Of a stretch of DNA of 64,000 nt, positions 38,899 through 64,000 are shown one piece after another (within the stretch, counting starts at the first letter, position 1; every line of letters starts with the position of its first letter). The position numbers and the translations under genes are program-made. The stretch is taken from NCBI RefSeq assembly GCF_001425625.1, contig NZ_LMCP01000003.1, positions 1-64,000 of the forward strand, read 5' to 3'. Below the pieces are notes generated by a model. That model saw only the letters and a program-made list of their open reading frames with translations. It ran no database searches and had not been told where the DNA came from. This stretch comes from Mesorhizobium sp. Root102. Lineage in GTDB: Bacteria; Pseudomonadota; Alphaproteobacteria; Rhizobiales; Rhizobiaceae.

Positions 38899-39369
38899 TT
38901 AGTCCTCGGAGGTGGTCTGGAGCGCCGAGATTTGCTCGGTATCATAGCGATGGCGAAGGTCTCCGACCGCCTTCGGGTCCGGTGGCCCAGATCGCGAGAC
39001 CATCTCGGCAAGCTCCTCGAAATAGTGCTCGTGCCCAGGGGGCGAGACGGTCATGATCACCCGTGCCGGCCTGTCGGTCGTATTGGCGATGTTGTGCGGC
39101 ACGCCCGGCGGGATGAACACGAACGTGCCGGAGGTGGCTTTGACGGTTTCATCGCCGATATGCCATTCGCACTCACCTTCGACAACATAGAAGGTTTCCT
39201 CCTGCACGCGGTGCACGTGCCGGCCGGTGGAGAACCGTGCGGGTATCGTCCAGTCGAACATGCTCGTGTATCTGGTGTGCTTACCGGTCACGAGGAAGGC
39301 CATAGGCTGGCCGGCGAGCGTAACGCCCGTAACGTCATTTGGCCGCCTGATCACTGCATTTGCGGGCAT
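38899..39369 (-). CDS. Cupin-domain protein
   Basis: 156 aa from the ATG at 39369, with GGGAG about 8 nt upstream. The cupin motif 1 is in RFSTGRHVHRVQEETFYVVE with HxH...E metal ligands, and motif 2 is in FIPPGVPHNIANT with the late His. Metal binding is therefore intact. The role is unknown; related small cupins modify sugars or small aromatics or sense ligands. It is divergent from the winged-helix regulator gene, which may control it. Confidence 0.82.
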   Translation of the reverse strand: MPANAVIRRPNDVTGVTLAGQPMAFLVTGKHTRYTSMFDWTIPARFSTGRHVHRVQEETFYVVEGECEWHIGDETVKATSGTFVFIPPGVPHNIANTTDRPARVIMTVSPPGHEHYFEELAEMVSRSGPPDPKAVGDLRHRYDTEQISALQTTSED

Positions 39370-46822: not shown

Positions 46823-47581
<759 letters not shown>

Positions 47582-47607: not shown

Positions 47608-48786
47608 TCAGGCGTCGGCGTCGACCACGGCCAGCGCCGCGTCGATCCCCTTGCCGATCGCCAGTTTCTGGCCGGCCGCGTTCATGGCGCCGCCAAGTGC
47701 CGTCAGCGCCGCGATCGCATAGATCGGATGGGCGGTCGGACCCATGTGACCGATGCGTGTCAGCTTGCCCAAGGTCTCGCCGCGGCCAGACGAAAACACC
47801 ACGCCGTAGCGGGCGCGCGCGGCCTGGCGAAGCGCCTTCTCGTCGACGCCTTCGGGCGTGCGGACGGCTGTCGTGGTCGGCGACGCGATCTTGTCGCTGG
47901 CGGCCCAGATCGACAGGCCCATCGCAGCAATGCCCGCCCGCATGGCCTTGGCGGTGAGCGCGTGGCGCGCCCACACTGCCTCCGGCTCCTCATGGAGATA
48001 GAGGTCGAGCGCGACATCGAGCCCGTTGATCTCCGAGACCGACGGCGTGAACGGAAACGGCTTGTCCCGCGACCACGCATGCTCCCAGTCGACGATGCTC
48101 AGCATCGACGCGCGGGGGGCTGCCTCGTTGCCCTTCATCTTGGCCCAGGCCCGCTCGCTGACGCCCATCATCGTGAGGCCGGGAGGCGCGCCCAGGCATT
48201 TGTTCGGGCCGGTGACATAGATATCGGCCTTGCAATCCTCCGGATGCGTCTGCATGCCGCCAAAGGACGAGACGGCATCGACGATGAGATAGCCGCCATG
48301 CGCCGAAACCAGCGCGCCGATGGCGTCGATCGGGTTGATGGTGCCGGACGGCGTGTCGTGGTGGCAGACTGAAACGACGGTGATTTCCGGATGCGCTTTC
48401 AGCATTGCCGCGACCGCCTGCGGATCGATCGCCTCATTGTAGGGCACCTCGATCTCGAGCAGATGTGGCGAATAGCGCTTCGCCCAATAGCCAAACCCCT
48501 TGCCGTAAACTCCGGAGGCAAGGTTGAGTACGACATCGTCGGGCGCGATCAGCGAGGCCGCGGCGGCCTCCAGGCCCAGCACCGGCTCGCCATGCAGGAT
48601 GACCGGTTTGTTCGACAGCCGCATCGCCTTCTGCGCCTTGTCGACCACACCCTCGTAGAAGAGCTGGAACGCCGGGTCGTAGTCGTAGAGCACCGTGCGC
48701 CCGAGGCCGCGCAGCACTTCAGAGTAGGCGTTCACAGGCCCCGCGGTCAGGGTGATGACCGGATCGGCGTGTTCGAGATAGCGCAT
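47608..48786 (-). CDS. ppaT: Pyridoxamine-pyruvate aminotransferase
   Basis: 392 aa from the ATG at 48786. The active-site segment DIYVTGPNKCLGAPPGLTMM carries Lys196, matching the substrate-pyridoxal Lys197 of the M. loti enzyme, and HGEPVLGLEA supplies the nearby Glu67. The N-terminus DPVITLTAGPVNAYSEVLRG is very close to the known protein. It transfers the amino group of pyridoxamine to pyruvate, giving pyridoxal and alanine, without bound PLP. It lies between the lactonase and pyridoxal dehydrogenase genes, with gaps of 26 and 38 nt. Confidence 0.93.
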   Translation of the reverse strand: MRYLEHADPVITLTAGPVNAYSEVLRGLGRTVLYDYDPAFQLFYEGVVDKAQKAMRLSNKPVILHGEPVLGLEAAAASLIAPDDVVLNLASGVYGKGFGYWAKRYSPHLLEIEVPYNEAIDPQAVAAMLKAHPEITVVSVCHHDTPSGTINPIDAIGALVSAHGGYLIVDAVSSFGGMQTHPEDCKADIYVTGPNKCLGAPPGLTMMGVSERAWAKMKGNEAAPRASMLSIVDWEHAWSRDKPFPFTPSVSEINGLDVALDLYLHEEPEAVWARHALTAKAMRAGIAAMGLSIWAASDKIASPTTTAVRTPEGVDEKALRQAARARYGVVFSSGRGETLGKLTRIGHMGPTAHPIYAIAALTALGGAMNAAGQKLAIGKGIDAALAVVDADA

Positions 48787-48812
48787 CGTCTTGTCTCCCG
48801 ATTTGGCGGCCA

Positions 48813-50602
<1,790 letters not shown>

Positions 50603-50605
50603 CCG

Positions 50606-51703
50606 CTAGGCCCTCCGCGACTGGTTGTACCGGTGATCGAAATATTCGGCGAGCGCGAGCACGATCAGCACGATGGAAACCAGCACAAGCGTGAAATGAT
50701 TGGGCACGCCGAGCCGCCGGGCCGCGCTCTCGCCCCCGATCGAAAGCACCGAGAGCAGGAACACGAAGCCTATTGCCGCAAAGCCGTTCATGCGGGCGAG
50801 AAACACGGCTGGAATCACAGCAAGCCCATAGGCGGGATTCCAGTCGGCGCGGACATTGCCCTGGACGCCGATGATGTCGACGGCGCCGGCAAGCCCGGCC
50901 AGCCCGGCCGAAATGGCAAAGACCGCAACGGTCAGGCCGGGGACGCCGAGCCCCGAGTGAACCGCCGCGCGTGGATTTGCGCCGACGATCCTCAGCTTCA
51001 GCCCGAACGCCGTGCGCGTCATCACCAGATGCACGATGATGATCGCCGCCAGTCCAAGCAGCAGGCCACTGGTGATGGTCGTTTCGAACAGGCGTGGCAG
51101 CCGGTCTTCCACCGGCAGCGTACGAGTCTGCGGCACGGTCGTGGCTGGATCGCGAAATGCCAGCTTGACCAGCACATTGGCGAGCGAGGTGCCGAGGAAC
51201 GTCATCATCAGCGTGGTGATGATCTCGTTGACGCCCTGATAGGCACGCAGCAAGGCCGGCACCAGCGACCAGATCATCGCCACCACCATGGCGATGAGGA
51301 ACGAGCAGGTCAGCGCCAGCCAGGCTGGCATGATCTGCACGAACACGGGAGCGCTGGCAGCAGCCGTCACCGCGCCGAGCAGGAACTGCCCATCGCCGCC
51401 GAGATTCCACATGCCGGCGCGAAAGGCAACGATCAGGCCGGCGGCAAGAAACAGCAGCGGCGCCATGCGCGTCAGTGTCTGCTGGATACCGAGCGGCGAG
51501 AACAGTCCTTTTTCCAGCACGTAGCCATAATAGGCGAGCGGGTCGACGCCGACGGCAAGCAGGATACAGCCGGCTATGACGAGAGCGGCAAGGATCGGGC
51601 CGAGCGTCATCAGCAGTCGGTGCAGGATGTCGCGGCGCGTCACCGCCCCGCTCGTGGCATCGAGTGCGGTGGCACTGACCGTGGGTGCGGTGTCGATGCT
51701 CAT
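50606..51703 (-). CDS. ABC transporter permease (BMP-type importer, YufP/NupB-like)
   Basis: 365 aa from an ATG that overlaps the ATPase stop by 4 nt. GMWNLGGDGQFLLGAVTAA and GVNEIITTLMMTFLGTSLAN are conserved loops of the partner permease in BMP-type systems. About nine hydrophobic segments are present. It forms a heterodimeric channel with the permease encoded next. Confidence 0.85.
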   Translation of the reverse strand: MSIDTAPTVSATALDATSGAVTRRDILHRLLMTLGPILAALVIAGCILLAVGVDPLAYYGYVLEKGLFSPLGIQQTLTRMAPLLFLAAGLIVAFRAGMWNLGGDGQFLLGAVTAAASAPVFVQIMPAWLALTCSFLIAMVVAMIWSLVPALLRAYQGVNEIITTLMMTFLGTSLANVLVKLAFRDPATTVPQTRTLPVEDRLPRLFETTITSGLLLGLAAIIIVHLVMTRTAFGLKLRIVGANPRAAVHSGLGVPGLTVAVFAISAGLAGLAGAVDIIGVQGNVRADWNPAYGLAVIPAVFLARMNGFAAIGFVFLLSVLSIGGESAARRLGVPNHFTLVLVSIVLIVLALAEYFDHRYNQSRRA

Positions 51704-53268
51704 GCGGCAAGTCCGATCATCAGGCGACCGACCTTGGTGCGGGCGTCGTCGGCATTCTCGACGGTGCCGACCAAAGCTCCATTTGCGATGACGGCGATGC
51801 GATCGCACATACCAAGCAATTCCTCGAGGTCGGTGGAGATCAGCAGCACGGCAAGGCCGCGCGCCGCCGTGTCGCGGATGCGCTGGCGCGACGCCAATGT
51901 GTTGGCAAGATCGAGCCCATAGGTCGGCTTGTTGAAAATGACCACCTTGGCGCCCTCTGCCAGTTCGCGCGCCAGAAGCACCTTCTGGATGTTGCCGCCG
52001 GACAGCCGCGCGACGGGCGTCTTCAGGCTCGGCGTCCGCACATCGTATTCGCGCACGAGCTGGGCGGCGCGCTTGTCGATCTCCGCGCGCTGCTCGACGC
52101 CGTTGCGCCAGAACGGGGCCGCGCCGACTTGCTTGAGGAAGAAGTTCATCGAGACCGGGAAGGTGCCGACGGTGCCCTCGCCCAGCCGGTCGTCGGTCAG
52201 GTAGCGAAGGCCGCGACGGCGGCGCTCGCCGACGCTCAGCGTCTCGATGGCGGCGCCGTCCAACCGCACCGAGCCGCAGGTGGCTATACGCTGGCCGGCC
52301 AGCGCTTCCGCCAGCTGCTTCTGGCCGTTGCCGTCGATGCCGGCTATGCCCAGGATCTCACCCGGGCGGATGTCGAAGGAGATCGACGACAGGCCCGGCG
52401 CGTTGTCCGTCGGTGCCACCGTCAGATCCTCGACCTGAAGCAGCGGGGCCGCTCCGGCGCGGGCGGTGCGGACAGGACGCTCGACGGCTTCCGGATCATC
52501 CTTCTGCTTGCCAAACATCAATTCCACGATCTCCGAGACGATCTCCTGTTCACCCAGCGCGCGAAGCCGCTCGGGTGGGATCTCGCCGACCTTGCGGCCG
52601 AGCTTCAGCACCGAGATGCGGTCGCCGAACGCTGCCGCCTCCTTGAGCTTGTGGGTGATGAAGACGATCGCGAGACCCTGCTCGACGAGACGACGCATCA
52701 GCGCGCCCAGTTCGTCGATGCCTTTCGGCGTCAGCATGGAGGTGGACTCGTCAAGGATGAGCAACCGGCTGTTGCGCAGCATCGCGCGCAGGATCTCGAC
52801 CTGCTGCTGCTCGCCGAGCGACAGCTCCGATACCTTGGCATGAAGCTTGACGGTGATGCTGAGCGTGCTGGTGATCTCGGCGACCCGCGCCGCCAGTTCT
52901 TCGGTCCTGGGACGCTGCCACCATGGCCCGCCAAGCAAGAGGTTTTCCGCCACCGTCAGCGTCGGCACCAGCATCATATGCTGGAACACGGTGCCGATGC
53001 CGAGCGCCAGCGCAAGGCGCGGCGAGGTGATCGGGGTCGGTTTGCCGTCGACCAGTATGCGACCTTCGTCCGGCTGCTGCAGGCCGGACAACATGCCGAT
53101 CAATGTCGATTTTCCAGCGCCGTTCTCGCCCAGCAGCACATGCACTTCACCCGGGCGGATCGACAGGTCGACGCTGTCATTGGCAACGATGCCGGGAAAC
53201 CGTTTGGTCACGCCTTCAAGCGCGACGATGTCGCGCCTGTCGACGGACGATGAAGAAAAACCGCTCAT
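51700..53268 (-). CDS. ABC transporter ATPase, two nucleotide-binding domains (BMP/ribose type)
   Basis: 522 aa. The first domain has Walker A LLGENGAGKSTL, signature LSLGEQQQVEILRAM and Walker B LLILDESTSML. The second, degenerate domain has GIAGIDGNGQKQLAEAL at the A site and LSGGNIQKVLLAREL as signature, as in RbsA-like ATPases. It powers the importer of operon A. It is linked to its permease by a 4-nt overlap and follows the binding-protein gene by 77 nt. Confidence 0.9.
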   Translation of the reverse strand: MSGFSSSSVDRRDIVALEGVTKRFPGIVANDSVDLSIRPGEVHVLLGENGAGKSTLIGMLSGLQQPDEGRILVDGKPTPITSPRLALALGIGTVFQHMMLVPTLTVAENLLLGGPWWQRPRTEELAARVAEITSTLSITVKLHAKVSELSLGEQQQVEILRAMLRNSRLLILDESTSMLTPKGIDELGALMRRLVEQGLAIVFITHKLKEAAAFGDRISVLKLGRKVGEIPPERLRALGEQEIVSEIVELMFGKQKDDPEAVERPVRTARAGAAPLLQVEDLTVAPTDNAPGLSSISFDIRPGEILGIAGIDGNGQKQLAEALAGQRIATCGSVRLDGAAIETLSVGERRRRGLRYLTDDRLGEGTVGTFPVSMNFFLKQVGAAPFWRNGVEQRAEIDKRAAQLVREYDVRTPSLKTPVARLSGGNIQKVLLARELAEGAKVVIFNKPTYGLDLANTLASRQRIRDTAARGLAVLLISTDLEELLGMCDRIAVIANGALVGTVENADDARTKVGRLMIGLAA

Positions 53269-53345
53269 GAAAGCCTAGCACTAAAAATTGGGAATCGACC
53301 GGAGGGGTGAACGGATCACCCCTCCGGCAGCTGACCTTAATCGCC

Positions 53346-54374
53346 TTACTGGGCGACGCTGGTCATCAATGCCCTGACGGCGGCCGCGTCATAGACCGGA
53401 TCGACCTTGATCTTGCCGGAAATGACGTCTTCGCGCAGCGCCTGGATTTCCGTCCAGACATTATCCGGGATCGCGGCTGTCTTCAGCAGCTTGACCGAGT
53501 CGTCCTTGAGGCCGATCGTATAGTGTTTGGTACCGAACGTGTCAGCCTTCAGGTCGGCAATCATCGCCGCATAGACCGGCTCGATGTTCCACACCACCGA
53601 CGACAGCAGGAAGCCCTTGTCGATCGGCGACTTGTCACCGATGACGTCGATGAAATAGACCTTGCCGCCATCGGCAGCCTTGGTCGTCTCGACCGCCTGC
53701 AGCATGCCGAAGCTCGAACCGTTGCCCTGGCCGAAGATGATGTCGGCACCTGATGCGATCACGCTTTCGGTGACGCGTTTGCCGCCGGCCGCATCGCTGT
53801 AGGCTGCCGGGCCGATCACCGCATAGGTGATCTTGACGTCCGGGTTTTCCGCCTTCACGCCCTGCGCGAACGCCGCCGACTGCGAATTCCACGAAGGCGG
53901 CTCGCCCGAGACGACGATGCCGACCGACTTGGAGCGCGACACCTTGGCGGCGAGACGGCCGGCGAGGTAAGCGCCCTCGTGGCCGCTCAGCGTGTAGTCG
54001 GCGACAAGGCCCTTCTCCAGGCCGGTCGGCGTGTCGACGATCGCCACCGGAACTTTCAGTTCCTTGGCGATTTCCGGAGCCGAGGTGTTGTAGCCGCTGG
54101 CATGCGCAATCAGCAGGCTGGCGCCGTCGGAGGCAAGTTCCCGCAAGGTCGGACGAACATCGCCATAGCCGAGGCCCTGGGCCACGACCACCTCGACGCC
54201 GGCGGCCTTGCCCGCCGCCTTGGCGGCGTCGATGCCTTGCTGGTTCCAGCCATAATCCGTGCCTTCTTCAGGCGTCAGGATGGCGATCGACTTGACCTCG
54301 CCGGCAAGCGCGCCGCTCATCAAGACACCGGTCAATATAACTGCACTTACACTGCTCTTAAGAAGCTTTAACAT
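53346..54374 (-). CDS. BMP-family periplasmic substrate-binding protein
   Basis: 342 aa with a signal peptide (KSSVSAVILTGVLMSGALAG). The Bmp/PnrA-like fold is shown by IAILTPEEGTDYGWNQQGID, SLLIAHASGY, TLSGHEGAYLAGRLAAKVSR and IIFGQGNGSSFGML. Family members bind purine nucleosides or related ligands. Here it is the first gene of an operon ending in three pyridoxal-catabolic enzymes, so pyridoxine, pyridoxal or pyridoxamine is the likely ligand (inference). Confidence 0.87.
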   Translation of the reverse strand: MLKLLKSSVSAVILTGVLMSGALAGEVKSIAILTPEEGTDYGWNQQGIDAAKAAGKAAGVEVVVAQGLGYGDVRPTLRELASDGASLLIAHASGYNTSAPEIAKELKVPVAIVDTPTGLEKGLVADYTLSGHEGAYLAGRLAAKVSRSKSVGIVVSGEPPSWNSQSAAFAQGVKAENPDVKITYAVIGPAAYSDAAGGKRVTESVIASGADIIFGQGNGSSFGMLQAVETTKAADGGKVYFIDVIGDKSPIDKGFLLSSVVWNIEPVYAAMIADLKADTFGTKHYTIGLKDDSVKLLKTAAIPDNVWTEIQALREDVISGKIKVDPVYDAAAVRALMTSVAQ

Positions 54375-54936: not shown

Positions 54937-55947
54937 TTATTCTTTTGCCAGGAATGCGTCGGTGAAGACGTCGTCCGCCGACAGAGCCGCCTTGAGCACG
55001 CCCTGATCCGTCAGCGTCTTCAAGGTCTCTTCCCATTGTGTCTTCGTCATCCAGCCGAGACCGTGTTCCTTGGTGTCGGGGCTACTGAACGTCGATGCGA
55101 TATCGGCGTTGATCTGCGCCAGCAGGACACCCTTCTTGTCCGCATAGCCGGGCGCTGCCTTGGCGGTGATCTCGGCAGCCTCTTCCGGATGCGCCACGAC
55201 GTAGTCGAAGGCCTCCCTGTATGCCTTGACGAAGCGGCGCACGACGTCCGCCTTGTCCTTGATCATCGTCTGCGAGGTGAACAGACCCGAGCCATAGGCC
55301 TTCCAGCCATAGTCCGCCCCCATCATGATGCTGAGAGAGCCTGGGCCTCCAGCCTTCGCCTCCAGTTCGGGAACCTCCGCGTCGACATAGCCGACGACCG
55401 TCTGAACCCGGCCAAGCAGCAGGTAGCTTTCATAGGGCGGCGAGACGCTGTTCAGCGTCATGTCCTTTTCGGTCAGGCCGTTGGCGGCCAGGAAGCCCTT
55501 GAAGAAGATGTAGGTGGAGCCGGCAGGGTGAATGCCGATGGTCAGTCCCTTCAGGTCGGACGGCTTTGCGAGCTTCACTGTCTTGGCCAGCGAAATGATC
55601 CCCAGCGGCGAGTGCTGATTGACGGCCACCAGCGCCACGACCGGAACATTCTGCGACCGTGCGACGGCAAGCGTGGGAAGATCGCCGAACCCGAAATCCG
55701 CGTTCTCATTGCCCACCAGCCGCATCGCGTCCGGCGAGCCGGACCCCTTGCGGATCTCGGCCACATCGATGTCGTTCTTGGCGAAGAAGCCCTTTTCCTT
55801 GCCGACAAAGAACATGGCGTGATTGCCGCGCACCACCCAGTCGAGCTGGACGTTGACCTTGTCGGCCGCCAGAGCCGCACTGGAGAAGCCGAATGCTGCG
55901 ACAAACGCCGCGAATGTAGCGGCCTTGATAAGTGAGCGTCTCAGCAT
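54937..55947 (-). CDS. NMT1/THI5-type ABC substrate-binding protein
   Basis: 336 aa with a signal peptide (IKAATFAAFVAAFGFSSAALA). VNVQLDWVVRGNHAMFFVGK, AEIRKGSGSPDAMRLVGNEN and LTIGIHPAGSTYIFFKGFLA are typical of the NMT1/SsuA-like family, whose members bind thiamine-pyrimidine precursors, taurine or other small ring and sulfonate compounds. It is in operon B with an FHMPC-dehydrogenase-like enzyme and a ring-dioxygenase-like cupin, so a pyridine carboxylate is a reasonable candidate ligand (inference). Confidence 0.85.
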   Translation of the reverse strand: MLRRSLIKAATFAAFVAAFGFSSAALAADKVNVQLDWVVRGNHAMFFVGKEKGFFAKNDIDVAEIRKGSGSPDAMRLVGNENADFGFGDLPTLAVARSQNVPVVALVAVNQHSPLGIISLAKTVKLAKPSDLKGLTIGIHPAGSTYIFFKGFLAANGLTEKDMTLNSVSPPYESYLLLGRVQTVVGYVDAEVPELEAKAGGPGSLSIMMGADYGWKAYGSGLFTSQTMIKDKADVVRRFVKAYREAFDYVVAHPEEAAEITAKAAPGYADKKGVLLAQINADIASTFSSPDTKEHGLGWMTKTQWEETLKTLTDQGVLKAALSADDVFTDAFLAKE

Positions 55948-55985
55948 TTTTGTTCCCTTTTTTGACGTTGGTTGATCGAGCGGGC

Positions 55986-56801
55986 CTAGGACTGGCTGAA
56001 TTTCGGCGCCCACGGCACCACGATGCGTTCGAGAATTTCGGCGGCGTAGTAGAAGGCGATGCCAAGCACGGAAACGAGCAGCAGCGCTGCGAAGACCAGC
56101 GCTGTGTCGAGCTGGGTCGAAGCGAACTGGATGACGTAGCCGAGACCGTCGGAAGCGCCGGCAAATTCGCCGACGATGGCGCCGATCACACTCAACGTCG
56201 CGGCGATCTTGGTTCCAGCCATCAGGTTCGGCAGGGAGTGCGGAACGCGGATCCTGAACAGGATCTGCGTCGGGCTGGCCCCGACGGAATTCATCAATGA
56301 CAGCAGCGAGCGGTCGACCGATTGCATGCCCGCCAACATGGAGAGCGTCACGGGGAAGAAGGCGATGACCAGGATCAGGCCGATCTTGGGCGCCAGCCCA
56401 TAGCCGAACCAGAGGATGAAGATCGGCGCGAGCGCGACTTTCGGCACGTTCTGGAACAGCACCACCAGTGGATACAGCGCGCGTCCCAGCCAATCGAAGC
56501 GCACGATGACCAGCGCGATGGCAATCCCGACCACGACCGAGACCAGGAAGCCGAACAGGATCTCGCCCGCCGTCACCAGCGTCGCCTGCATCAGCGTGCC
56601 CCATTGCGCGACCAGCGACTTCGCGATCTCGGAAGGGGCAGGAATGATGAAAGTAGATATGGCAAAGATCCGCACGGCGGCTTCCCACACCACGATTGTC
56701 ACCAGCAGCAGAATGACCGCCGGCAGCCAGCTGCCTGTCGCAGCGCTCCAGTTGGAGGCGAGGCGGGCCTCGGAAAGATCCGTGATGGGTTGGTCGCTCA
56801 T
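55986..56801 (-). CDS. ABC transporter permease (SsuC/ThiX type)
   Basis: 271 aa with about six hydrophobic segments. The EAA-type loop reads SLMNSVGASPTQILFRIRVP and is followed by HSLPNLMAGTKIAATLSVIG. This is the usual permease partner of NMT1-type binding proteins. The ATG overlaps the ATPase stop by 4 nt; the binding-protein gene starts 38 nt downstream. Confidence 0.88.
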   Translation of the reverse strand: MSDQPITDLSEARLASNWSAATGSWLPAVILLLVTIVVWEAAVRIFAISTFIIPAPSEIAKSLVAQWGTLMQATLVTAGEILFGFLVSVVVGIAIALVIVRFDWLGRALYPLVVLFQNVPKVALAPIFILWFGYGLAPKIGLILVIAFFPVTLSMLAGMQSVDRSLLSLMNSVGASPTQILFRIRVPHSLPNLMAGTKIAATLSVIGAIVGEFAGASDGLGYVIQFASTQLDTALVFAALLLVSVLGIAFYYAAEILERIVVPWAPKFSQS

Positions 56802-57628
56802 GACGCGCCCCCCGGTTGATGGCTGGAGCGCAGCATCGTTCGCAACTGAACCACCAGCCTGACGAACTCCGGATCTTCGGTAACCGACAGGTCGCGCGGA
56901 TAAGGCAGCGCAATGTCGAGGCTCTCGGTGATCCGCCCCGGCTTGATCCCCAGCACGTGAACATGGCGTGACAGGTGGATGGCCTCGTCGATGGAATGGG
57001 TGACGAGCACGATCGTCTTGCCGGTACGCTGCCAGATCTCCAGCAGCGACTGGCCCATGGAATCGCGGGTAATGGCGTCGAGCGCACCGAACGGTTCGTC
57101 CATCAGCAGCACGGCCGGGTCGAGCGCCAGGGCTCGTGCGATGGCGACCCGTTGCCGCATGCCGCCCGACAGTTCGTTTGGGCGCTTGTGGGCGCTGTCG
57201 CCCAACCCCACCAGTTCCAGCATCTCCTGCCCGCGCGCCCGCAGATCCGAGCGCGACAGCGACTTGTCGGCGATACCGAGCAGCAGCGAGGCATTGTCGA
57301 CGGCACTTTTCCAGGGGAGCAGGTTGGCGTCCTGAAAGACGAGGCCGATCATGCGCTTGCGCGCCGCCTCGACCGGCGCGAGCCCCGCGATCGAAACGCT
57401 GCCCTGGGTCGGCTGCACCAACCCGGCCAGCACCTTGAGCAAGGTGCTCTTGCCACAGCCGGAAGGACCGATAAGGGAGACGAACGACCCCTTTGGCACC
57501 GAAAGATCGATATTCCTAAGGATCAACTGCCGGGCGATGACCACCGAAACGCCTTTGGCGGAGATCAGATCGTCATGGCGGATATGGGCCGGCCTGTCGC
57601 CGGCGGTTCGAATGGTTTCAATGCGCAT
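56798..57628 (-). CDS. ABC transporter ATPase (SsuB/ThiZ type)
   Basis: 276 aa. Walker [11 protein letters not shown]-loop [14 protein letters not shown], signature [15 protein letters not shown], Walker [17 protein letters not shown] and the H-loop VTHSIDEAI are all intact. It energises the NMT1-type importer. It follows the dehydrogenase gene by 130 nt, on the same strand. Confidence 0.9.
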
Positions 57629-57758: not shown

Positions 57759-58691
57759 CTACTCCCGGCCTTCCAGGATGCGCCGCACCGCGACAAGCTT
57801 GCGCGCCCGTTCGCCCTGCAGCACCTTTGTCTGCTCGAGCGTATAGGCAAACATGCCCTCGCCCGACTTGATGCCGAACTTCGACGCAGCCGTCTTCTCT
57901 AGCACAATCGGCGCGACATCGTCGCGATTGGAGAGATCGGCATTCAGGAAGGATGAGACGGATTTGTAGATATCCAGCCCCGCCATATCGAGCAGCGCCA
58001 TCGGGCCGATGACGGCGATCTTGTAGCCGATGCCCCACGACACGCAGGTGTCGAGATCTTCCGGCTCGATGACGCCGCGCTCGACGAGGTCGACCGCCTC
58101 GCGCAGCAGCGCATAGAGCACGCGGTTCTCGACGAAGCCCGGAACGTCCTTCTTCACCACCACCGGCAGCAGGCCGATAGAGCGAATGAGGTCGCGGATA
58201 ACAGCCACGGTTTCAGGCGCGGTCTTTTCGCCGCCGATCACCTCGATCATCGGTATGATGTGCGGCGGGTTCGACCAGTGCATGCCGACCATCCGCTCAG
58301 GATGCGAGATATGCGCCTGCAGCGTGGTGATCGGGATGCCCGACGTGTCGGAAGCGACGATGACGGACGGGCCGATCAGCGGATCGATGTCGCGATAGGT
58401 CTGCGCCTTGATGTCGATATTCTCGGGCACATTCTCGATCACCAGTTCGGCGCCGTCGACGGCCTCGGCGATCGTCTCGACGAAACGTACGCTGCCGGTG
58501 CCTGTCACGGGCGCCTTGATGTCGAGACGGTCGAGCACGCCGCCGGCGAGATCAAGCATGCCGCGGGCACGCTCGACTGCCGCCTGCGAAACATCATACG
58601 CCGTGACATCGAGCCCACCGCGCGAAAGCCGCGCGGCGATGCCCGGACCCATCGTTCCCAGCCCGATGAGAGCGGCGCGCTTGATCATCAT
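57759..58691 (-). CDS. FHMPC 5-dehydrogenase-like 3-hydroxyacyl-CoA-dehydrogenase-fold enzyme
   Basis: 310 aa. It has N-terminal NAD motif IGLGTMGPGIAARLSRGG, ENVPENIDIK, ASDTSGIPIT, and the His/Glu dyad in MVGMHWSNPPHIIPMIEVIG (His138, Glu150). The C-terminal helical domain includes VVVKKDVPGFVENRVLYALL. Length, the HWSNPP active site and the B6 setting resemble M. loti 5-formyl-3-hydroxy-2-methylpyridine-4-carboxylate dehydrogenase (mlr6793), which makes the 4,5-dicarboxylate. The name is by resemblance and context; another hydroxyacid dehydrogenase role is possible. It overlaps the GST gene by 4 nt. Confidence 0.7.
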   Translation of the reverse strand: MMIKRAALIGLGTMGPGIAARLSRGGLDVTAYDVSQAAVERARGMLDLAGGVLDRLDIKAPVTGTGSVRFVETIAEAVDGAELVIENVPENIDIKAQTYRDIDPLIGPSVIVASDTSGIPITTLQAHISHPERMVGMHWSNPPHIIPMIEVIGGEKTAPETVAVIRDLIRSIGLLPVVVKKDVPGFVENRVLYALLREAVDLVERGVIEPEDLDTCVSWGIGYKIAVIGPMALLDMAGLDIYKSVSSFLNADLSNRDDVAPIVLEKTAASKFGIKSGEGMFAYTLEQTKVLQGERARKLVAVRRILEGRE

Positions 58692-59308
58692 GCCGCCTTT
58701 GCGGGAGCAGCGGCGGTTGCCGCCTTGAAGGCCGGCCGAGCGGCGATCGCGGCCACCCAGCGCTCAAGATTGGGCATCGACGGCCGGTCGATCTTGAAAT
58801 CGACGCAGCGCTTCAGGATCGGCGCGCAGGCGATGTCGGCAAGAGTCAGCTTGCCGAGCGCCAGGAAGTCCTTGCCGGCCAGGTGGCCGTCGATGATCTT
58901 GAGCTGCGCGACAAGGTCCTTCACTTGTTCCTTGTATTCGGCGGTCTGTTCCTCGGGCGTCAGCTTGGCGCCCTTGAAGGCCGCCAGGTAGCCGGGATTG
59001 ACCGCCGCCAGCAGGAAGTCCATCCAGCGTTCGACCTCGGTCTTTTCCGCCGGCGTGGCGCCATTCAACTGTTCGCCGCCGGATGCCGCGAGATAGCGCA
59101 GTATGGTGTTGGACTCCCAGATCACGGTGTCGCCGTCGACCAGCGTCGGCACCTTGGAGGTCGGGTTGAGCGCCTTGTACTCCGCCGTCTGGGTGTTCTC
59201 GAACTGGCGGCCGTAGTCCTCGCGCTTGTAGGGCGCCCCAAGCTCTTCGAGCATGAAGAGCACCTTCTGGACGTTGCCTGATGTCTGGCGGCCTAAGAGC
59301 TTGTACAT
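58688..59308 (-). CDS. Glutathione S-transferase family protein
   Basis: 206 aa. The thioredoxin-fold N-terminal half has the start YKLLGRQTSGNVQKVLFMLE and glutathione-binding LNPTSKVPTLVDGDTVIWES. The C-terminal helical domain includes GKLTLADIACAPILKR. It could detoxify or isomerise a ring-opened intermediate, as maleylpyruvate isomerase does in gentisate catabolism, but it lacks the zeta-class SSCxWRVRIAL motif. It is co-operonic with a gentisate-dioxygenase-like cupin. Confidence 0.86.
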   Translation of the reverse strand: MYKLLGRQTSGNVQKVLFMLEELGAPYKREDYGRQFENTQTAEYKALNPTSKVPTLVDGDTVIWESNTILRYLAASGGEQLNGATPAEKTEVERWMDFLLAAVNPGYLAAFKGAKLTPEEQTAEYKEQVKDLVAQLKIIDGHLAGKDFLALGKLTLADIACAPILKRCVDFKIDRPSMPNLERWVAAIAARPAFKAATAAAPAKAA

Positions 59309-59334
59309 GTCGTCTCCTCGATTGTGTCCAAGGC

Positions 59335-59742
59335 CTACTTGCCCGCCGGCAGCGGCTTATAGACGATGGCGTCCATTTCGATCTTGGTGTTGATGACCGC
59401 CTTTGCCTCGACGGTCGTGCGCGCGAGGACGGCGTCGCCGATACCTTCGAGGAACGCCTTGTTGTAGCGGCCGAAATCGCGCGTATCCTCAAGATAGGTG
59501 GTGATCCGCACGACATCCGACAGCGTCGCGCCTTCATGCGCGATGACGCGCGCGATGGTCTTCAACGTGGCCAGCGTCTCTTCCTCGATCGTGCCGCTGA
59601 TCATGTTGTTGTTCTCGTCCTTCGGCACCTGGCCCGAGACGAAGATGAAATCGCCGGCACGCACCGCCGGATGAAACGGCAGGTTCGGGTTCTTGTTGCC
59701 GATGGCGTAGTGGCTGGCGGATTTTCGCGTGCTGTCGCTCAA
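59335..59742 (-). CDS. RidA-family (YjgF/YER057c) protein
   Basis: 135 aa from a TTG with AGGAG 5 nt upstream. PFHPAVRAGDFIFVSGQVPK, ATLKTIARVIAHEGATLSDV and ARTTVEAKAVI give the trimeric RidA fold; the Arg in LARTTV fits the imine/enamine-deaminating subgroup. Such proteins hydrolyse enamine or imine intermediates. Within an operon that may open a pyridine ring, an enamine product would be a sensible substrate (inference). Confidence 0.87.
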   Translation of the reverse strand: MSDSTRKSASHYAIGNKNPNLPFHPAVRAGDFIFVSGQVPKDENNNMISGTIEEETLATLKTIARVIAHEGATLSDVVRITTYLEDTRDFGRYNKAFLEGIGDAVLARTTVEAKAVINTKIEMDAIVYKPLPAGK

Positions 59743-59751
59743 TGCCTGCTC

Positions 59752-60909
59752 CTAGAGAACGCTGGTTTCGATGATGTCGACACCACGGATGCGATCGATC
59801 AGGTAGACGATGCCACGGTCGTCGATGGTCACGTCGTTGGACGAGGAACGCTCCGCTCCCTCCGGCGCGTCGGGCATGAAATGGCCGACCTCCTTTGGTG
59901 CGAACGGGTCGGCGATGTCGACGAGGCGAAGCCCCTGCGCGAACCATGCAAACGGGATGATCGTGCCCTTGAACCGTTCGGAAGGCTGATGGCAGCCCGT
60001 CATCGGCGGTTGCGGCTCACCGTCCGGGTCGAGGCCCGGCACCTGGAACGTAGAGATCGGCAACGGGTTGGTCTCGTCGGTGATGTCGTAAATCCATGTG
60101 AAGGCCGGCGGTGATGGCCGAAGCTTGGCGACATCCTCGTCCGCCACCACCATGATGCTGCGACCCTTGAGCGGCTGTGGGATCGGCAGGCAGGTGTGGG
60201 TGGGATGCGGAAAGCTCGGGCTCGAATTGACGTGTGAGACCAGCTTCGGCTTGCTGATGTCCGAAATGTCGAGGATGAACAGGCCGTGATGCCAGTAGCT
60301 GACATAGAGCCGGTCGCCCATGCGCAGCGGATGGTGGCAACGCGGCGTGACATAGTCATGCCAGGGGTATTCTTCGCCACCGCCGGTCCACTGGCCGGGT
60401 ATCCACCAGCGTCCGACCTCGACTGGCTTCGTGGGATCGATCAGGTCGAGGATCATCACGATATTGCCGACATAACCGTCGGCGGTCGGCGAGATGTAGA
60501 CGTAACGGCCGTCGAAGTCGTAGCGGTGGACGCCCTTGCCTCCGGTTATCCATTTCGAGATGAGCTTGGGCTGTGCCGGCTTGGTGGTGTCGTAGAGCGC
60601 CAGTCCGCCACCGAAATCGGCGGGGCCGGCGTCGCCAAAGCGCTCGTGGTTGATGATCATCAGCCCGTCCTTGGCGCGCACCTTGTGCGAGTGCCAGCCG
60701 GGCGGAACATCGATCGTGGCTATCTTGCGCGGATTGCGTGGGTCGGAAATGTCGACCAGCGTCGTGCCGCTCGGCGGCCGCATATGGCCGATATAGAGGA
60801 TGTTGCCGTCGACCCAGACCTGGCCGCCGCCTGGGCAGTCGACGTGGCCGATCTGCTTGGTGTTGAACGCCGAAACCAAATGCATACGCCCTTGCTGCTG
60901 AAACGTCAT
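59752..60909 (-). CDS. LVIVD-repeat beta-propeller protein
   Basis: 385 aa. Repeated LVDISDPRNPRKIA-, IYDITDETNPLPIS-, LVDIADPFAPKEVG- and LDISDISKPKLVS-like segments form a beta-propeller of LVIVD repeats. There is no signal peptide, so it is probably cytoplasmic. His-rich stretches (HSHKVRAKDGLMIINHERFG, TGCHQPSERF) could hold a metal. The family has few defined functions. It lies between the dioxygenase-like and RidA genes with gaps of 54 and 9 nt, so it likely takes part in the same pathway. Confidence 0.8.
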   Translation of the reverse strand: MTFQQQGRMHLVSAFNTKQIGHVDCPGGGQVWVDGNILYIGHMRPPSGTTLVDISDPRNPRKIATIDVPPGWHSHKVRAKDGLMIINHERFGDAGPADFGGGLALYDTTKPAQPKLISKWITGGKGVHRYDFDGRYVYISPTADGYVGNIVMILDLIDPTKPVEVGRWWIPGQWTGGGEEYPWHDYVTPRCHHPLRMGDRLYVSYWHHGLFILDISDISKPKLVSHVNSSPSFPHPTHTCLPIPQPLKGRSIMVVADEDVAKLRPSPPAFTWIYDITDETNPLPISTFQVPGLDPDGEPQPPMTGCHQPSERFKGTIIPFAWFAQGLRLVDIADPFAPKEVGHFMPDAPEGAERSSSNDVTIDDRGIVYLIDRIRGVDIIETSVL

Positions 60910-60963
60910 TTCGATGCCCCCGCCGCCATTGGCGGCGGGACAGTGCTTGCCGAAGGACCGGAA

Positions 60964-62115
60964 CTAGACGAGGCGGAGCAGATCGCCGGCCTGGTTGCGG
61001 CCCCAGCGCTTGTAGAGGAGCAGCGCCTTCTGCGTCGGCGCATCGGTGGCGCCGAAGAAGATCACCGGCTCGCTTGAAGAGCCGTTGACATGTTCGACCC
61101 ACGATCCGCCGGGTATGGCGATGGTGTCGAACTGGTTCCAGTCATAGCGTTTGCCGTCGATGATCGAATGGCCGTTGCCGCGGAACGGCGCCAAAAGCAG
61201 GCTGGCGGTCTCGCGCTGCGGCAAGGTCTTCTCACCGGGGCGCAGCATCTGCACGTAGAAATTGATGGTGTGAAAGACGGGGCCGCCGGTGGTCGGATCT
61301 ACATAGTCGATGACGATGCCTTCATGAGGGTCGCCATCCCAATCCTTGTGGGCCTCGAGGACCGCTTCCATCTTCTCCCAGCGATAGACGTACATCGGCG
61401 ACGACAGGCCGCCGCCGCGCTTGTGGTCGACGAAACGCGGCATCAGGCCGCCCTCGCCATAGATGCGCTGTGAGTAGTCGCTCGGATAGCGGGCGGTCTG
61501 CACCTTCTTCTCGACTTCCTTGCCGTCGACCATCTCGGTGTATTTGTGGTCGAAATGCACGGCATGCAGCGTCTCAACCAGCGGCAGGTCGAGCACCGAC
61601 AGGTTGACCGCCTGCTCGCCGCCGACGGTGCCATGATTGTGCCAGGCGTCGTTGGGCGTCAGCACCATGTCGCCGGGGCCGAAGACTACGTCTTCGCCTT
61701 CGACGCCTGTGAAGTTGCCCTTGCCGGTCAGGCCGAAGCGGATGGCGCTCGGCGAGTGCTTGTGCGGCGGCATGATCTCGTCGGGATCATTCAAGCGGTA
61801 GGCCGTGTACATGGTGCTGACCGATGCGCGCTTGGGCGCAAGTCCAGGATTGACCAGGATCAGCGAGCGGCGCTCGCTGTCGTCCATGGTCACCAGTTCG
61901 GCGGCGCGCTGCAGCAGCGGCTCGATGTCCGAATAGGACCACACGAAGGGAACGGCCTTCGACGTCGCCATCAGTTGCTTGATCTCGTCATGGTCGACGC
62001 CTTCCGACGTCGCCCAGAACGGAAACATGTTCTTTTCGTAGAGAGCGTCATAGAGGCCCTTGAGTGCTGCCTTCTTGTTGGTGAGCACATCGTTAGCTGG
62101 TTGCGCCAGGGACAT
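60964..62115 (-). CDS. Gentisate 1,2-dioxygenase-like double-cupin protein
   Basis: 383 aa from the ATG at 62115, with GAGAGGT 7 nt upstream; a GTG three codons earlier falls inside that site. Two cupin domains are visible. The first has the Fe-ligand pattern MPPHKHSPSAIRFGLTGKG ... PNDAWHNHGTVGG, like the HxH...H set of gentisate and 1-hydroxy-2-naphthoate dioxygenases. The second is around HTINFYVQMLRPG and GSWVEHVNGSSSE. It should add O2 across a ring bearing a hydroxyl and a carboxyl. In the B6 operon setting a hydroxypyridine carboxylate is a candidate substrate (inference). Confidence 0.82.
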   Translation of the reverse strand: MSLAQPANDVLTNKKAALKGLYDALYEKNMFPFWATSEGVDHDEIKQLMATSKAVPFVWSYSDIEPLLQRAAELVTMDDSERRSLILVNPGLAPKRASVSTMYTAYRLNDPDEIMPPHKHSPSAIRFGLTGKGNFTGVEGEDVVFGPGDMVLTPNDAWHNHGTVGGEQAVNLSVLDLPLVETLHAVHFDHKYTEMVDGKEVEKKVQTARYPSDYSQRIYGEGGLMPRFVDHKRGGGLSSPMYVYRWEKMEAVLEAHKDWDGDPHEGIVIDYVDPTTGGPVFHTINFYVQMLRPGEKTLPQRETASLLLAPFRGNGHSIIDGKRYDWNQFDTIAIPGGSWVEHVNGSSSEPVIFFGATDAPTQKALLLYKRWGRNQAGDLLRLV

Positions 62116-62404
62116 ATCGGACACCTCTCGTCACGAAGAAAATGCTTCTAACCAACTCAACCGTATTCGCATTGGTTTTGCTCGACAATCCCCAAATTGC
62201 GAAATTTATAAGTTTTTGGTTGAAGTGCATTTTCGACAGGCAAATACCCAAAAATAGGCAGGAATGGCCAAAAATTCGCACAGAACATGCTCAGGAAGGC
62301 AGAGTGAAGCCTGTTCGTTACGGCCGTGCAGGCTCACGGCAGTTCAACCAATGTAGATTTTTAGTCTCAACCAAAAGATTTTGGTTGCATCCCGGCCGCC
62401 GCTA
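62116..62404. promoter_or_regulatory. AT-rich intergenic region upstream of operon B
   Basis: 289 bp, noticeably more AT-rich than its surroundings, between the dioxygenase-like gene and the GMC gene, both on the minus strand. It contains TCAACCAA at 62344 and 62367 and the complement TTGGTTGA at 62216, which may be a regulator site. The operon B promoter is expected here. No gene is seen. Confidence 0.5.
62368..62387. terminator. 20-bp palindrome after the GMC gene
   Basis: CAACCAAAA, GA, TTTTGGTTG: exact 9-bp arms with 2 nt between, 18 nt downstream of the minus-strand GMC stop. It could act as terminator of that gene or as an operator for operon B. Confidence 0.4.
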
Positions 62405-64000
62405 TTAGGCCGCCACGCTCTGTTGAGCGCGGTTGCGGATCAGATCGACGGCCTTTTCGGCGATCATGATCACCGCCGCATTGATGTTGCCGCAGACGAG
62501 ATCCGGCATCACGGAGGCGTCCACGACACGAAGTCCGGCAACGCCGCGTACCCGCAATTCCGGATCGACCACCGACTCCGCATCGATACCCATACGGCAC
62601 GTGCCGGCCGGATGATGCACGGTGATCGACGTCTTGCGGATGTGCTCGTCGATCTCTTCGTCGCTCTCGCATTTCGGTCCGGGGAAGAATTCCGCGCCAA
62701 CGAACGGGGCCATGGAAGGCTGGCTTGCAAGGTTGCGCGCAACACGAAAGCCGGCGCGAAGCGACTGCCAGTCACGCTGCGAGGACAGGAAGTTCTGATG
62801 GATCAGCGGAGCGGCGACCGGATCGCTCGACGCCAGCTTGACGCTGCCACGGCTCTCCGGCTGCACGGCGACGATACGGGTCGCAAAGCCGTCGGCGAAC
62901 GGTGCCTTGAATGGCGACATGTAAGGCCATGCCCCAAGCGGTGCGGCGGTGAAAAGCAGCTGGACGTCCGGCAACGGCCGGCTTGCATCGCTTTTCAGAA
63001 ATGCCACGACGCCGCCAGGCACATCTCCCGAAAAGCCCTTTCCGGTGAGATAGGTCTTGACGAAATCCAGCCCGATACGATCGGCCCGCATCATCTTGAG
63101 AAACGGTCCGGGCTGTTTGCGTCGATACATCAGGATGACCGAAACATGGTCCTGCAAATTCTTTCCGATCTGCGCACGATCAACCTTCGTCTCGATGCCA
63201 TGCGCCGCCAGTTCGCCGCTGTCGCCTATGCCCGACAGCATCATGAGTTGCGGCGTGTTGATGACGCCGCCGGCAAGCAGAACCTCGCGCCGCGCGAGAA
63301 CCTCATGGCTCGCCCCGCCTCTGGTGTAGGCAACGCCCGTTGCGCGCCCATCCTTCAGGAGGATCTTCGTCGCCATCGCGCCGGTCAGAACCTTGACGTT
63401 GCCGCGGCGCATGGCGGGCCGCAGATAGGCGGTCGCGGTCGAGCAGCGCCGGCCGTTCGCAATTGTCATCTGCAAACGGCCGAAGCCTTCCTGGACGGCG
63501 CCGTTGTAGTCTTCGGTCTGCGGGTATCCGGCGTCACGGCTGGCCGTGGCGAAGGCATCGATCAATTCATCCTTGTAACGGCAGAACTGGGTGTTCAGCG
63601 GCCCGCTGCCGCCACGATACCGGCTTTCGCCCGCTTCCCAGCGCTCCTGCTTCTTGAAGTAGGGCAGCACCCTGTCGAACGACCAGTCCGTCAGGCCGCT
63701 TGCCGCCCAGCGATCGTAATCGCCGCGATTGCCGCGCACATAGGCCATTGCGTTGGTGGAAGAAGAGCCTCCGATAACCTTGCCGCGCGCGCATTCGACC
63801 TTGCGCCCGCCGACATTGGCCTCGGGCTCGCAGAAATACATCCAGTCGTGGCGGCGCTCGGTCAGTATCTTGCCCCAACCAAGCGGGATGTGGATCATCG
63901 GATCGCGGTCCCAATCTCCCGCCTCCAGCAGAAGCACCGACACCGCGGGGTCTTCGCTCAGCCTGTTCGCCAGCACGCAGCCGGCCGATCCCGCACCGAC
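62405..64000 (-). CDS. GMC oxidoreductase, pyridoxine 4-oxidase-like (5' end beyond window)
   Basis: At least 531 residues; the frame continues through the right edge, where [20 protein letters not shown] is the FAD-binding start of the GMC family. Further signatures are [35 protein letters not shown], and the C-terminal [10 protein letters not shown] with [20 protein letters not shown], which supplies the catalytic His and partner residue. Local sequence such as [20 protein letters not shown] resembles M. loti pyridoxine 4-oxidase (mll6785). It would oxidise pyridoxine with O2 to pyridoxal, feeding the enzymes of operon A. Choline-dehydrogenase-like activity is the alternative. Confidence 0.8.

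Follow-up and report, generated by a model that had tools for sequence, protein, structure and literature searches.

The window analysed here comprises the first 64,000 nucleotides (positions 1-64000) of contig NZ_LMCP01000003.1 of Mesorhizobium sp. Root102 (genome 6.76 Mb, completeness 100) and contains a vitamin B6 degradation operon, a single run of open reading frames on the minus strand. Its standard ring-opening genes are replaced, as is well shown at the gene level, by a group encoding a double cupin, an LVIVD protein, a RidA-family protein, and a glutathione S-transferase (GST) family protein. It is probable that these four proteins replace the lower half of B6 degradation, with 3-hydroxy-2-methylpyridine-4,5-dicarboxylate (HMPDC) as the compound whose pyridine ring the cupin is predicted to cleave directly. 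Judging from the genes, this Mesorhizobium and many of its relatives are likely to open the vitamin B6 ring by a third route that seems not to have been described before. In the standard route, a decarboxylase first acts on HMPDC, a flavin oxygenase then opens the ring, and the product is finally hydrolysed. The operon here runs in the order GMC oxidoreductase, cupin, LVIVD, RidA, GST, FHMPC dehydrogenase, importers, 4-pyridoxolactonase, pyridoxamine-pyruvate transaminase, and pyridoxal dehydrogenase, and its packing is tight (gaps of 54 bases between cupin and LVIVD, 9 between LVIVD and RidA, and 26 between RidA and GST; the GST and FHMPC dehydrogenase frames overlap by 4 bases). All the genes that a preliminary description had named in this operon are open frames lying where it had placed them on the minus strand, except that the cupin gene starts at 62124, position 62115 being an ATG three codons in.

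Three genes of the standard operon of another Mesorhizobium (L076) correspond to M. loti enzymes of solved structure, MHPC oxygenase (3alj, E 1.1e-253), AAMS hydrolase (3kxp, E 1.7e-152), and HMPDC decarboxylase (2z7b, E 8.8e-138), and served as queries against the whole Root102 genome. No ortholog of any of the three was found there: the best matches reached 38% identity over 157 residues for MHPC oxygenase (E 6e-13, with none at E 1e-30), 28% for AAMS hydrolase (E 8.8e-19), and 28% for HMPDC decarboxylase (E 3.2e-6, a remote aldolase-II protein). The absence of these three enzymes, which the preliminary description had reported for the window, thus extends to the genome, and the complete set of standard lower-pathway genes that it had allowed for elsewhere in the genome was looked for and not found.

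We further compared genomes that encode FHMPC dehydrogenase. We searched the order (397 genomes), the genus (146), and the class (385), of which 12, 56, and 6, respectively, were positive at the limits used (68 genomes without repeats). At the locus, 36 of the 68 carried the standard module and 32 the cupin module, with none carrying both and none carrying neither. Within the genus, 51 loci were newly fetched, of which 30 had the full set of four standard genes and none of the cupin module, 20 the full set of four cupin-module genes and none of the standard ones, and one, which ends at a contig edge, three standard genes (L121); of the remaining five genus genomes, G248, G265, and G309 were standard, and G000 and G209 had the cupin module. 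Outside the genus, the order contributed two standard genomes (G045, G286) and five cupin genomes (G120 having its cupin on a second small contig), and the cupin module was present in 5/5 class-level genomes. MHPC oxygenase was searched for in the whole genome in 17 of the 68 and the cupin in 12, the other 51 assignments being made at the locus only; no cupin-ortholog genome had an MHPC oxygenase ortholog among the 17 searched whole, and the reverse combination was likewise not found in the 12 genomes for which both searches were made. Within the whole-genome-searched cupin genomes, relatives of MHPC oxygenase reached at most 42% (G819). The presence of one module or the other at every locus in 68 genomes, together with the lack of the three standard enzymes in Root102, supports the earlier suggestion that the standard ring-opening genes have been replaced by the cupin group. 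As a separate observation, flavin oxygenases that share 41-43% identity with MHPC oxygenase occur at G265:C11:77163-78161, G248:C66:3451-4452, and G819:C37:82444-84662, and are possible further hydroxypyridine oxygenases.

The same pattern was seen from the side of the cupin. Among 46 cupin-found loci from species-representative genomes, LVIVD was present in 46, RidA in 45, GST in 44, FHMPC dehydrogenase in 45, and the GMC gene in 45, and MHPC oxygenase, AAMS hydrolase, and HMPDC decarboxylase were found in 0/46. One locus stops after RidA at the contig end, the sequence up to that point matching neither GST nor FHMPC dehydrogenase (L045), another begins within the cupin (L050), a third passes from LVIVD directly to FHMPC dehydrogenase with no RidA or GST in between and its contig ends soon after (L047), and in L174 the FHMPC dehydrogenase gene separates the cupin from LVIVD, at which the fetched stretch stops. 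Because L045, L047, and L174 vary in the other genes while the cupin-LVIVD pair is kept in 46/46, these two form the core of the module, and their association is more than chance.

The upper pathway feeding this module is complete, with activities assigned from characterised relatives: pyridoxine to pyridoxal, 4-pyridoxolactone, 4-pyridoxate, FHMPC, and HMPDC. Four pathway I equivalogs, all on the minus strand, score above their NCBIfam cut-offs, namely pyridoxal 4-dehydrogenase of the SDR type (46823-47569; NF047923, 424 bits, cut-off 325), pyridoxamine-pyruvate transaminase (47608-48900, the true start lying inside this span; NF046070, 654 bits, cut-off 600), 4-pyridoxolactonase (48813-49649; NF047925, 490 bits, cut-off 325), and the HMPDC-making FHMPC 5-dehydrogenase (57759-58691; NF042925, 554.8 bits, cut-off 500; PDB 4om8, E 3.6e-164). 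The GMC oxidoreductase gene (Pfam GMC; minus strand, 62405-64000 in the window and reaching contig position 64033 beyond it) is likely, by its sequence, to encode 4-pyridoxate dehydrogenase. It shares 78-82% identity with the GMC gene that adjoins FHMPC dehydrogenase in five standard operons, and the characterised M. loti 4-pyridoxate dehydrogenase is a GMC family enzyme. The preliminary description had listed 4-pyridoxate dehydrogenase among the missing or replaced enzymes and had taken the GMC gene for pyridoxine oxidase, neither of which is borne out. The GMC protein scores only 266 bits against pyridoxine 4-oxidase (4ha6), which together with its identity to the standard-operon GMC speaks against that assignment; the gene orthologous to pyridoxine 4-oxidase (600 bits to 4ha6) is found a short way beyond the window end at contig positions 64959-66536, and a GntR-type regulator frame stands between the GMC gene and the divergent pyridoxine 4-oxidase (contig 64034-66536, opposite strand).

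Comparison with three standard Mesorhizobium operons indicated a common operon frame. The DNA is 85-89% identical from 46823 to about 57630, about 81% identical in FHMPC dehydrogenase where this aligned apart, about 77% in the GMC gene, and 64% in pyridoxine oxidase (two operons, where aligned), with no match across cupin to GST and none outside the operon. The insertion spots differ, the standard genes lying upstream of GMC and the cupin group between GMC and FHMPC dehydrogenase. At least two module changes are forced by the FHMPC dehydrogenase tree, and the five standard copies form one clade in the GMC tree. Our reading is that the standard genes, along with the GMC gene beside them, entered operons that were already there, or that the exchange ran the other way. 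A PF06684 'amino acid synthesis' protein is encoded between MHPC oxygenase and HMPDC decarboxylase in 5/5 standard operons (L076:5864-6454; L077, L078, L080, L082), and is not known to have a part in the vitamin B6 pathway as published.

The importers belong to this common frame. An NMT1-type ABC importer (ATPase, permease, and binding protein; 54937-57628, minus strand, NMT1 Pfam) had been listed with this operon in the preliminary description but is not part of the replacement: the standard operons L076-L078 have it too (90-93% identity), and TRAP-type transporters substitute for it elsewhere. A Bmp-type ABC importer (binding protein, ATPase, and two permeases; 49667-54374, minus strand, PF02608 for 53346-54374) is also present in standard operons. 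In some cupin operons, TRAP-type DctM transporters occupy the position that the NMT1 ABC importer takes in Mesorhizobium, within the module or next to it, at L042:12788-15695, L086:5992-8835, L084:11040-12968, and L034:14449-16182, and two of these four sites adjoin an NMT1_3 binding protein.

The cupin (60964-62124, minus strand; PDB 3bu7, E 4.2e-51) is, from its sequence, clearly though distantly a member of the gentisate/salicylate dioxygenase family. Its best NCBIfam model is gentisate_1_2 (TIGR02272 equivalog; 208.4 bits, below the cut-off of 442.1), the top 17 Foldseek rows obtained with a low-confidence model of it are all gentisate/salicylate dioxygenases, and relatives within its clade are named gentisate 1,2-dioxygenase in database records. 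According to PMC11264262 and PMC10306065, salicylate dioxygenase binds iron by His119, His121, and His160 and contacts its substrate through Arg83, Gln108, Arg127, His162, Trp172, and Asp174, and Asp174 and Trp104 recognise the 5-OH of gentisate. In an alignment made via 3bu7 and 2d40, residue numbers of the cupin run consistently two ahead of those of salicylate dioxygenase. The iron ligands H121, H123, and H162 are retained along with R85, R129, and H164 (121/121 module cupins for each, apart from H164 in 119/121), and the second cupin domain is without the HxH seen in 3bu7 (Q303 and E305 here). The pocket has R110, N174, S176, and Y106 where salicylate dioxygenase has Gln108, Trp172, Asp174, and Trp104. 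R110, N174, and S176 are kept in 26/26, 121/121, and 26/26 module cupins (three sets, possibly overlapping), and 11/11 gentisate-type relatives (nine genome paralogs and two PDB chains) have Q, W, and D at these positions. The change at the Asp174 and Trp104 equivalents argues against gentisate as the substrate, and the extra arginine R110 in the place of Gln108, the residue that contacts the substrate carboxylate in salicylate dioxygenase, would suit a dicarboxylate, namely the neighbouring 5-carboxylate of HMPDC. Elsewhere in the window, another strong single-cupin match (72 bits) lies at 39049-39252 on the minus strand.

RidA proteins hydrolyse imines of 2-oxoacids. The RidA-family protein of the module (59335-59742, minus strand; Pfam PF01042), a proposed imine/enamine hydrolase, belongs to a set in which R108-T109-T110 is kept in 50/50 module RidA proteins; the R-x-T of the plant RidA pyruvate site, where a passage of PMC4960622 has pyruvate bound by R165 and T167, is therefore present in 50/50. 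For the LVIVD protein (59752-60909, minus strand; Pfam LVIVD), a seven-bladed-propeller-like protein and the proposed metal-dependent hydrolase of the ring-opened product, an AlphaFold2 model (mean pLDDT 87.4) gave the phosphotriesterase 5hrm as the best Foldseek match (E 2.4e-17; next 3e-8). The sequence match to 5hrm is weak (E 1.3e-7, 20-23% identity) and VIA-align gave 5hrm a small lead over WD40 propellers (31.4 to 30.0). Many His, Asp, and Glu residues are invariant among 45 aligned relatives, which suggests a putative metal site. The GST family protein (58688-59308, minus strand; Pfam GST_N/GST_C, PDB 6nv6, E 4.9e-32) is a possible isomerase, for which we have no better lead, or may serve a glutathione-dependent step.

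A route can be proposed that gives each protein a task. HMPDC carries a 3-OH next to a 4-carboxylate, the pair bound by the gentisate family, and this pair is lost on decarboxylation to MHPC. In the proposed reaction, HMPDC, a hydroxy-acid resembling salicylate, would bind the cupin iron through the 3-OH and the 4-carboxylate, much as salicylate does in salicylate dioxygenase, with R110 and R129 holding the carboxylates. Both atoms of O2 would enter across the C3-C4 bond to yield HOOC-C(CH3)=N-CH=C(COOH)-CO-COOH, an N-alkenyl imine of pyruvate, a product that suits RidA; the substrate, the bond, and the products are all inferred from residues and chemistry. RidA would hydrolyse the imine to pyruvate and an enamine and would then hydrolyse the enamine to ammonia and 3-formyl-oxaloacetate, and the LVIVD hydrolase would split the latter or another ring-opened product, for example to formate and oxaloacetate. 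As the weakest guess, the GST might isomerise an intermediate or carry it on glutathione. Since the 4-carboxylate would be kept, no decarboxylase need be present, and because the cupin would cleave HMPDC directly, the decarboxylase, the flavin oxygenase, and AAMS hydrolase would all be unnecessary. On paper, the balance would be HMPDC + O2 + 3 H2O to pyruvate, ammonia, formate, and oxaloacetate; the standard route ends in succinic semialdehyde, acetate, CO2, and ammonia. The proposal in its fullest form is more tentative, with chances that we place somewhat below even: a cofactor-free third B6 route, in which a new clade of the gentisate family cleaves the C3-C4 bond of HMPDC without NADH, a dedicated RidA releases pyruvate, LVIVD is a new hydrolase, the route ends in pyruvate, oxaloacetate, formate, and ammonia, and the lower pathways are exchanged as cassettes in one operon frame across Alphaproteobacteria.

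Some observations weigh against cleavage of HMPDC by this module. The RidA protein scores 65.3 bits, below the TIGR00004 cut-off of 106.25, and four of the five class-level cupin genomes are without a close 4-pyridoxate dehydrogenase (44-47%; G697 has one at 65%). The distant genomes G603, G695, G819, and G870 and the loci L171 and L173 keep the cupin and FHMPC dehydrogenase without a close 4-pyridoxate dehydrogenase, and another enzyme may feed the module in such distant genomes. These cases would also fit a module that opens the ring of 4-pyridoxate or FHMPC, with the two dehydrogenases working in parallel or on ring-opened products: both compounds have the same 3-OH/4-carboxylate pair, L171 and L173 have no 4-pyridoxate dehydrogenase ortholog at the locus, and four of the five distant genomes have no close one anywhere. 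We nevertheless regard this as unlikely, given that FHMPC dehydrogenase is present in every uncut cupin locus (45/46; L045 ends at the contig end) with an equivalog score as in standard operons, and that R110 would be better explained by a second carboxylate.

The cupin might instead be a true gentisate- or salicylate-type dioxygenase acting on a plant aromatic acid, a passenger in an operon whose B6 degradation is incomplete or is ended by genes yet to be named. The best family model and the database names are those of gentisate 1,2-dioxygenase, and no other gentisate-type cupin was found in the genome at E 1e-30, so that this job is not covered by a separate enzyme. The score, however, is under half of the family cut-off, the equivalents of W172, D174, and Q108 are all changed, the operon contains no fumarylpyruvate hydrolase, and the either-or pattern with B6 genes is strict across the 68 genomes, all of which makes a benzenoid substrate highly improbable. 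The least probable reading that we considered has an unrelated enzyme decarboxylate HMPDC, so that MHPC would be opened, as in the standard route, either by the cupin or by a different oxygenase. Cupins are recruitable to new chemistry and the genome does encode the remote aldolase-II protein (28%, E 3.2e-6), but MHPC has no carboxylate beside its 3-OH and hence lacks the chelating pair of the gentisate family, the operon holds no decarboxylase candidate, and there is no AAMS hydrolase ortholog for the next step.

If direct cleavage of HMPDC by the cupin is correct, the third B6 route would be about as common as the standard one among the sampled FHMPC dehydrogenase genomes (32 vs 36), and the annotation of the fate of this vitamin in soil and root bacteria would change. 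It would also give a family known for benzenoid rings a pyridine-ring substrate, one RidA clade a catabolic role, and the largely uncharacterised LVIVD proteins a lead, and the R110/N174/S176 signature would correct gentisate 1,2-dioxygenase database names in bulk. No report of a cupin-type B6 ring-opening route was found in the open-licence literature, and the introduction of PMC3538738 names only two routes of bacterial vitamin B6 breakdown.

Compared with pathway I (Mesorhizobium loti MAFF303099 and Pseudomonas MA-1), the operon has the same upper genes (pyridoxal dehydrogenase through FHMPC dehydrogenase), the same importers, and the same frame, but cupin, LVIVD, RidA, and GST in place of HMPDC decarboxylase, MHPC oxygenase, and AAMS hydrolase. 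Pathway II runs via 5-pyridoxate with a flavin oxygenase, whereas the genes here belong to the 4-pyridoxate side, a distinction drawn from the description of that pathway. In Pseudomonas IA and Arthrobacter Cr-7, pathway II also ends, according to a passage of PMC3538738, in oxygenative opening of the pyridine ring. The gentisate/salicylate 1,2-dioxygenases (3bu7, 2d40, 2phd) share with the cupin the double cupin fold, the iron ligands, and the equivalents of Arg83, Arg127, and His162, and differ in having Gln108, Trp172, and Asp174 where Arg, Asn, and Ser stand here, and in the proposed pyridine substrate. For RidA, the nearest parallel is 2-aminomuconate deaminase (6izh), which a passage of PMC6742747 describes as a Rid-family catabolic enamine deaminase acting after ring cleavage in 2-aminophenol breakdown; the likeness lies in a Rid-family deaminase that follows ring cleavage of a nitrogen-bearing aromatic, while the similarity is weak (E 8.5e-12) and the substrate expected here is an imine of pyruvate. 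The LVIVD protein in turn resembles the haloalkylphosphorus hydrolase/phosphotriesterase of Sphingobium TCM1 (5hrm), its top structure match, in having an LVIVD-like propeller, and would differ from it in substrate class.

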